DNA of 64,000 nt from Candidatus Deferrimicrobiaceae bacterium (GTDB lineage: Bacteria; Desulfobacterota; Deferrimicrobia; Deferrimicrobiales; Deferrimicrobiaceae), in NCBI GenBank assembly GCA_036504035.1, contig DASXVV010000009.1, positions 496,001 to 560,000 of the forward strand. The letters are read 5' to 3'. Each line of letters opens with the position of its first letter. Position 1 is the first letter of the stretch. Below are positions 32,239 to 35,630 of the stretch, one piece after another. The notes under the pieces were generated by a model that did not search any database, had not been told where the DNA came from, and saw only the letters and a program-made list of their open reading frames with translations. Position numbers and translations under genes: made by a program.

Positions 32239-32328
32239 GGACACCTCGCGTGCGGAGATGTGCGACGATTGCTTCCGAATCATACCGCGACGGGCGTCAA
32301 CCTGTTGCAAATTATTGGATAATACGCC

Positions 32329-32360
32329 AAAGGGGAAGCCGAATGATCGGCTTCCCCTTT
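32329..32360. terminator. Intrinsic terminator following the tRNA-Lys-linked element
   Basis: A 14-bp stem AAAGGGGAAGCCGA pairs with TCGGCTTCCCCTTT around a 4-base loop. It lies 10 bases past the end of the tRNA-3'-end copy of the element on the minus strand. It closely resembles the hairpin just after the intact tRNA-Lys, with matched changes in the stem. Confidence 0.85.
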
Positions 32361-32369
32361 GGGAAAGAT

Positions 32370-32511
32370 TGGTGGGCCATGTAGGAGTCGGCCACTACGC
32401 CTCCGACATCCTGTCTCCGGCTGCGTAGCCTCCCCTCGACCGCCTGACGCCCGCATCCATGCGGGCTCATCCTCGCTATCCGCTCGGCGGCGGACTCGCT
32501 TCGACTCCTGC
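32370..32511 (-). repeat. 142-bp tRNA-3'-end-linked structured element, copy 1 (tRNA-Lys)
   Basis: A 142-bp sequence about 87% identical, without gaps, to 35489-35630. On the minus strand it lies downstream of tRNA-Lys. Its last 21 bases (32390 down to 32370) are an exact copy of tRNA-Lys nucleotides C56-A76, including CCA. Predicted pairings: positions 3-10 with 122-129 (element ends); 46-51 with 58-63 around an invariant ATGGAT loop; GGCT-ACGC-AGCC at 82-93; and GACA-GGA-TGTC at 97-107. Positions 66-114 are identical in both copies. No transposase or integrase is encoded. It could be a minimal non-autonomous mobile element or a structured RNA with a tRNA-like 3' end. I do not recognise it as a named family. 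Confidence 0.85.
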
Positions 32512-32530
32512 ATTGGGCCCATGTAACGAC

Positions 32531-32561
32531 AAACGGGAAGCCGAAAATCGGCTTCCCGTTT
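32531..32561. terminator. Intrinsic terminator after tRNA-Lys
   Basis: A 14-bp stem AAACGGGAAGCCGA / TCGGCTTCCCGTTT with a 3-base loop starts 10 bases after the CCA end of tRNA-Lys on the minus strand. The following T-run is short (TTTGT). Its sequence is a near duplicate of the hairpin at 32329-32360. Confidence 0.85.
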
Positions 32562-32570
32562 GGGAAAATT

Positions 32571-32646
32571 TGGTGGGCCATGTAGGAGTCGAACCTACAA
32601 CCTCCGGATTAAGAGTCCGCTGCTCTGCCAGTTGAGCTAATGGCCC
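32571..32646 (-). tRNA. tRNA-Lys (anticodon CTT)
   Basis: A complete 76-nt cloverleaf with encoded CCA. The acceptor stem is GGGCCAT / ATGGCCC, the D arm GCTC...GAGC, the anticodon loop CTCTTAA gives CTT (lysine AAG), and the T arm is GTAGG-TTCGACT-CCTAC. The outermost anticodon-stem pair (27-43) is a G-G mismatch. It is the last of three tRNAs in a minus-strand cluster. Its final 21 bases are duplicated 201 bp downstream inside the repeat element. Confidence 0.96.
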
Positions 32647-35389: not shown

Positions 35390-35466
35390 GCGCCTGTAGC
35401 TCAGGTGGATAGAGCATCTGCCTTCTAAGCAGATGGCCGCAGGTTCGAATCCTGCCAGGCGCACCA
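35390..35466 (+). tRNA. tRNA-Arg (anticodon TCT)
   Basis: A complete 77-nt tRNA with encoded CCA. The acceptor stem is GCGCCTG / CAGGCGC, the anticodon loop CTTCTAA gives TCT (arginine AGA), and the T arm is GCAGG-TTCGAAT-CCTGC. Its last 21 bases (C56-A76, 35446-35466) recur exactly at 35610-35630 as the tail of the second element copy. Confidence 0.97.
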
Positions 35467-35488
35467 TGACTCCCTTCACCAAGCCCAC

Positions 35489-35630
35489 TCAGGATTCGAA
35501 GCGAGACCGCCGCCGAGCGAATAGCGAGGACAAGCCGCCATGGATGGCGGCAGCAGGCGGTCGAGGGGAGGCTACGCAGCCGGAGACAGGATGTCGGAGG
35601 CGAAGTAGCCGAATCCTGCCAGGCGCACCA
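35489..35630 (+). repeat. 142-bp tRNA-3'-end-linked structured element, copy 2 (tRNA-Arg TCT)
   Basis: The second copy of the element at 32370-32511, of identical length with 19 differences. It starts 23 bases after tRNA-Arg(TCT) on the same strand and ends in that tRNA's C56-A76. Against copy 1, the pairs 49-60 and 50-59 of the ATGGAT-loop stem are flipped (C-G/G-C versus G-C/C-G). The end-pairing 7-125 changes from G-C to T-A. These are compensatory changes, which argues for selected base pairing. Unlike copy 1, no hairpin terminator separates it from the tRNA. Confidence 0.85.

Follow-up and report, generated by a model that had tools for sequence, protein, structure and literature searches.

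A repeat behind the tyrT and tyrV genes of Escherichia coli is, to our knowledge, known from one enterobacterial locus. Like the element described here, this repeat (rtT RNA, rttR; Rfam RF00391) lies downstream of a tRNA gene in tandem units. Its parts also follow one another as in the element: tRNA-Tyr, a spacer, an inverted arm GGGGAAGGAT, a hairpin with CGAGCGAAAGCGAG, and a tail that directly repeats the tRNA 3′ end. A length change of 122 bp at rtT RNA is given in one table line of an earlier paper (PMC2658671). In addition, the E. coli annotation lists rttR as a small RNA at the equivalent position behind the tRNA. However, R1, our covariance model of the element core, gave no significant match to the E. 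coli repeat (best E 0.09). The RtT covariance model scored over its cut-off in none of 12 carrier genomes and gave no match at eight source-genome loci. The E. coli repeat is thus built like the element family, but its membership in the family is not supported by sequence.

Integron cassettes carry attC sites, whose R′′ and R′ boxes follow the consensus RYYYAAC...GTTRRRY. They resemble the element in the order of the direct and inverted repeats that flank a folded site, in the absence of a recombinase of their own, and in the arrangement in arrays. However, the element lies behind tRNA genes, its ends match each target, and the arms and tails that we read do not fit this consensus. REPINs and REP elements with RAYT are short dispersed hairpin DNA. 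The element is also of this kind, but its ends copy the target, and no Y1 transposase was found in the source genome (G000) or in G001 and G002 of the same genus. Meanwhile, islands and phages that integrate at tRNA genes also duplicate the tRNA 3′ end; the element differs from them in having no genes, in its inverted arm, and in the use of one core family for many tRNAs. A literature search (PMC) found no account of this element family.

Two copies in the window

The window is the whole stretch of 64,000 nucleotides that was analyzed. It holds an element of about 150 nt, non-coding, behind each of two tRNA genes. Copy 2 follows an intact tRNA-Arg(TCT) (35390..35466, plus strand), whose 3′ end, CGAATCCTGCCAGGCGCACCA, recurs as the tail of the copy, an identical run of 21 bases at 35610–35630 (plus strand). 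Upstream of the tail on the same strand are the inverted arm CAGGATTCGAA (35490..35500), which is the reverse complement of the tRNA T loop/T stem and pairs with the tail, and the conserved hairpin core (35500..35609; R1, 93.5 bits). Copy 1 lies on the minus strand behind an intact tRNA-Lys(CTT) (32571..32646). A terminator-like hairpin (32532..32560) occupies the interval between this tRNA and the copy, and the inverted arm GGGCCCAATGCAGGAGTCGAA (32500..32520) is an imperfect reverse complement of the T arm and acceptor of tRNA-Lys. The core (32391..32500; R1, 95.8 bits) and the tail (32370..32390) follow, and the tail directly repeats the last 21 bases of the gene, CGACTCCTACATGGCCCACCA. Next to it there is a diverged second copy of the tRNA-Lys terminator region (32326..32369, minus strand). 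Thus, the direct repeat at Lys extends beyond CCA, and it continues about 24 nt into the terminator with mismatches.

The preliminary description of this DNA held that each tail equals the 3′ end of its own upstream tRNA and that the two tails differ at 5 positions, and both statements were confirmed, the match being 21 of 21 bases at either locus. The two cores, at Arg(TCT) and at Lys(CTT), share 89% identity, yet the ends differ. Since shuffled flanks of the source-genome tRNAs reached at best 13–16 of 21, the 21/21 matches cannot be ascribed to chance; by arithmetic, the probability of such a match within about 700 bases is about 1e-10. Above threshold, an Rfam search of the window returned tRNAs alone. 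At a low threshold, the source-genome loci gave tRNA, tmRNA, SRP RNA, and weak matches judged to be chance. In phages and plasmids, there was no match to the window copy.

Structure of the element

At tRNA genes, the order of parts is the tRNA, whose 3′ end is the first direct repeat (DR1), a spacer often containing a terminator, the inverted arm, the core, and the tail (DR2). The tRNA-linked copies have a single orientation, on the strand of their tRNA. The whole unit was also found in tandem arrays. The core is conserved over about 108 nt and is a covarying, multi-hairpin structure. In an alignment of 105 cores (102 distinct) that had been fitted to the structure, 96.2% of the 2009 pair cells in the core helices were standard pairs, and partners slid out of register were paired in at most 51.5%. 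Both-side changes occurred in 16 of 20 core pairs (468 cells vs 138 in shuffles). Reading the alignment by eye, we found that the core loops retain GGA and that several helices have tandem G.A mismatches of the form CGAG/CGAG.

Distribution of the element

Copies in the source genome were found using BLAST and R1. There were 19 strong copies, including one each at Arg(TCT), Lys(CTT), Leu(CAG), Leu(CAA), and tmRNA, three at Ser(CGA), four at Glu(TTC) in an array closed by a fifth copy of the intergenic kind, two behind a displaced 3′ fragment of tRNA-Leu, and four intergenic copies. Most of the 49 tRNAs of this genome have no element. The tails are not all intact: those at Glu are partial, and the Leu(CAA) and tmRNA tails are lost.

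R1 matches were found in 16 of 30 genomes. All 16 belong to the source family, which contributed 19 of the 30; the 11 genomes from other families gave no match. An even sample of the phylum Desulfobacterota gave matches in 11 of 247 genomes, 5 of the 11 belonging to other families. Furthermore, a pattern scan of named genomes yielded 10 places (7 in Treponema and other spirochaetes, 3 in deltaproteobacterial MAGs), and 37 of 296 genomes in a sample of the spirochaete phylum carry the element, several of them single-contig. The copy number was 15–20 in each of G000, G001, and G002 (20 in G002) and 9 in G480. Among the viral contigs searched, one IMG/VR contig called viral had copies, three at its end (L168 15-525), and these could be the host flank of a provirus. 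In another case, a copy lies behind a tRNA called SeC, and its tail matches the 3′ end of that tRNA over 25 nt (L083 817-924).

For comparison among loci, we used a set of 150 copies, made up of 18 of the 19 strong source-genome copies and of 76 of 76 and 56 of 57 hits of further sets, 3 of the 56 coming from the viral contig. The copy at C9:611851, which was read later, and one incomplete copy were omitted. The 60 relative regions were picked from listed hits in ten relatives and are not every hit, and most of the spirochaete loci represent the top hit of their genome.

Match of the ends to the local tRNA gene

A tRNA or tmRNA was present at most 420 nt upstream on the same strand in 92 of the 150 core copies. 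These tRNA-linked copies span 24 anticodons and tmRNA, and the element thus recurs at many tRNAs. Within 150 nt of the core, a same-strand tRNA was upstream in 72 of the 150, only downstream in 3, and absent in 75; an opposite-strand tRNA was found in none of the 150.

When each tail was compared with its upstream tRNA, a check proposed in the preliminary description, the own tRNA was the best match for 64 of the 92 tails in a pool of 54 ends, and the rest were mostly decayed. The tail score was at least 12 in 65 of the 92. These strong tails begin 13 to 26 nt ahead of the gene end, and by inspection the breaks spread over roughly tRNA positions 48–57, which does not agree with a break fixed at C56. 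The copy had also been said to end at CCA; however, the repeat continues for at least 12 nt beyond the gene end in 19 of the 65 strong tails. Furthermore, where spirochaete tRNA genes lack CCA, the strong tails lack it as well (34 of 34). Thus, it is DNA that was copied and not mature tRNA, and the suggested RNA process ending at the mature CCA has to be given up. The more general idea of capture or templating of the tRNA end survives in outline, though not with the fixed C56 break or the mature CCA.

The arm score was at least 8 in 83 of the 92 tRNA-linked copies. The earlier claim that the left end changes in step with its tail holds in this sense, but in the window copies (score 11 each) close tracking was confined to the T-loop/T-stem part. 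In a test anchored on the T loop only, in which 56 of the 92 copies could be anchored, the arm agreed with the tRNA in 54 of 56 at position 62, in 35 of 56 at position 65, and in 15–26 of 56 across the acceptor stem, where most arms match the tRNA no better than chance. When the tRNA and the tail disagreed, a fixed-window test over T stem positions 62–65 showed the arm siding with the tRNA in 11 cases and with the tail in 1. Over positions 62–72 the same test gave 46 vs 10, the 46 coming from only 10 copies. Thus, the arm answers more to the tRNA than to the tail. The arms that we read mostly lack TGG where the complement to the CCA end would fall, and a primer-binding site of a tRNA-primed retroelement was rejected on this ground.

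At tRNA-Leu(GAG) of the source genome (C9:199846-246140; L234, L009), a gene for a 373-aa tyrosine recombinase-like protein adjoins the tRNA, and a displaced 3′ fragment of tRNA-Leu, about 46 kb off, carries two elements. Both elements match the fragment (CAAATCC) and not the present tRNA-Leu(GAG) (CGAGTCC), so they seem to be older than the 46-kb island. This locus bears on the possibility that the elements are att remnants of classical integrases, i.e., tiny leftovers of islands in tRNA genes. The 3′ ends of tRNAs commonly serve as att sites, and an insertion of this kind did displace a 3′ fragment here. Nevertheless, the conserved core and the tRNA-matched inverted arm would be left unexplained, and the two matching copies at the fragment seem to precede the island. 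We therefore disfavor this account as extremely improbable. The tyrosine-recombinase att core of the preliminary description is not supported either, as a classical att site would not yield an inverted arm matched to each tRNA.

Spread between loci

Nearest neighbors of the cores were compared for 147 of the 150 copies. For 22 of 83 tRNA-linked cores, the nearest neighbor was at the same anticodon in another genome, as is expected from inheritance; for the remaining cores it was at another tRNA or was a copy that the script left unlinked to a tRNA. Besides the Arg(TCT)/Lys(CTT) pair, cross-isoacceptor neighbors fell at a core identity of 0.85–0.90; such pairs in other genomes include Arg(TCG)/Leu(GAG) at 0.90 and Arg(CCG)/Leu(GAG) at 0.86. 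One could suppose that tRNA 3′ regions were duplicated in tandem long ago and have since been passed on vertically, slippage and gene conversion alone keeping the copies alike and no transposition taking place. The tandem arrays and the positions common within genus g1, namely Ser(CGA), Glu(TTC), and Leu(CAG), are in line with this. However, the presence of homologous cores at 24 anticodons and at intergenic places requires that they spread from locus to locus at some stage, and two cores at the same tRNA can be less alike than cores at different ones. We regard this supposition as very improbable.

Empty sites were also compared, as had been suggested earlier. In G002, the orthologous tRNA-Arg(TCT) site was found without the element. 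At tRNA-Asn, both G001 and G002 have a copy that G000 lacks at this tRNA. To the right of the empty sites, the flanks aligned too poorly to fix the insertion boundary, and absence at an orthologous tRNA could be explained by loss through recombination between the repeats as well as by gain. In G000, an apparent terminator and arm remnant without a core lies about 840 bp behind tRNA-Asn (C6; L042 1010-1085).

In the intergenic copies of the source genome and G012, a hairpin GGAGCGAGAACCC...GGGTTCGAGCTCC usually stands in for the tRNA end. Several of these copies have the hairpin duplicated after the core, and the order of repeats is then as at tRNAs. Thus, a tRNA is not needed. G012 has about 40 copies (L108-L124); all those that were read lie away from tRNAs, and most have an upstream hairpin of their own. 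The preliminary description had counted copies away from tRNAs, varying breakpoints, and tails of unrelated tRNAs against its view. Copies of the first kind do occur and breakpoints vary within the T arm, while tails of unrelated tRNAs form no pattern.

DNA hairpin or structured RNA

Another explanation is a functional structured RNA, comparable to the rtT RNA of E. coli or acting as a decoy for CsrA, that is made as part of the tRNA transcript and kept by selection; its ends would match through pairing with the tRNA and concerted evolution. This is consistent with the covarying helices and the conserved loops across phyla, the low energy at which the two window copies fold (z -4.1 and -3.2), and the small-RNA annotation of rttR in the same position. 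Moreover, terminator-free spacers of about 31–45 nt at some tRNAs would permit cotranscription. The GGA loops, including CsrA-like loops CA(N)GGAUG and ACAGGAUGU noted by eye in the core alignment, resemble the CsrA-binding motif. However, CsrA is present in only 6 of 16 carriers of the source family and missing in 10, and a CsrA decoy was rejected as a general role. In addition, a strict terminator separates the tRNA from the element in 22 of 70 first copies, and more terminators were seen by eye, some of the other copies having an imperfect one and some none. The intergenic copies are also difficult to reconcile with an RNA of this kind.

The G-U pairs speak against an RNA as well. In the spirochaete cores, they make up 10 of 946 standard pairs, compared with 19 of 240 in the acceptor stems of the neighboring tRNAs (Fisher 1e-7). 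Such scarcity is expected if the hairpin matters as DNA, through selection or repair. It is not decisive, because stable RNA hairpins can avoid G-U too. Furthermore, the acceptor stems of source-family tRNAs have 0 G-U of 182, so the argument has no force in that family. Taken with these points, we consider a selected RNA rather unlikely.

Candidate enzymes

The integrase search proposed in the preliminary description did not bear fruit in the window, since no integrase linked to the window copies was found. Of 18 genomes tested, only 3 of them non-carriers of the family, 10 had a match to the integron integrase model TIGR02249 above the cut-off; the source genome is among these 10, and both phyla are represented. 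Long partial matches occurred in G012, G474, G550, and the non-carrier G007. The carriers G002 (20 copies) and G480 (9 copies) had neither full nor partial matches. The co-occurrence of integron integrase and element is a lead only.

In the source genome, an integron integrase (TIGR02249, 472 bits) is followed by three attC-type repeats of about 102 nt (C8:246273-250023; L223 8274-12024). It is conceivable that the elements are cassettes and that they are moved by an integron integrase or another recombinase whose substrates are folded single-stranded sites. The order R′-cargo-R′′-hairpin-R′ corresponds to DR-spacer-inverted arm-core-DR, and the integrase counts given above point the same way. 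On the other hand, two carriers have no integrase match, the element ends depart from the attC consensus, and the repeats of the source genome that are presumed to be attC sites (GCCTAAC...GTTRGGC) are unlike the element. Model R2 detected no significant element in 10 integron regions, and scanning the same regions with a strict attC pattern yielded nothing of use. For these reasons, movement of this type seems clearly improbable to us. A RAYT/Y1 transposase was also rejected as a requirement, as it is missing from three carriers of one genus (G000, G001, and G002) and from three others (G008, G014, and G015).

Proposed mechanism and significance

In our best reading, whose chances of being right and wrong we judge to be about equal, these are non-coding DNA hairpin elements that are targeted to tRNA T arms and whose ends are rewritten to match the local tRNA. 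The mechanism could be as follows. A copy of the core, in the form of a hairpin with T-loop-like ends (TTCGAA), would anneal to a tRNA gene at its T arm. Both arms would then be extended on local DNA, one giving the inverted copy and the other the direct copy of the tRNA end. The product would join behind the tRNA, which would stay intact with its 3′ end duplicated. Afterwards, fold-back (palindrome) repair and recombination between the repeats might keep the ends and the tRNA alike, and the same processes may build tandem arrays and delete copies. The work could be done by host replication and repair or by a recombinase acting in trans.

More tentatively, and with a little less than even confidence, we propose that the elements represent a new class of non-coding mobile DNA. 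With every insertion, the two ends would be written anew from the target tRNA gene, one as an inverted and the other as a direct copy of its T arm and 3′ end. One core could thereby serve many tRNAs in distant bacteria and leave them unbroken, and the rtT repeats of E. coli would be a cousin.

If this is true, the odd tyrT repeats of E. coli would be one case of a far wider kind, and bacteria would be able to add DNA behind almost any tRNA harmlessly. As the ends would record the target, comparison of strains in culturable spirochaetes could test the process. If the element is an RNA instead, a widespread tRNA-linked RNA would have been overlooked.
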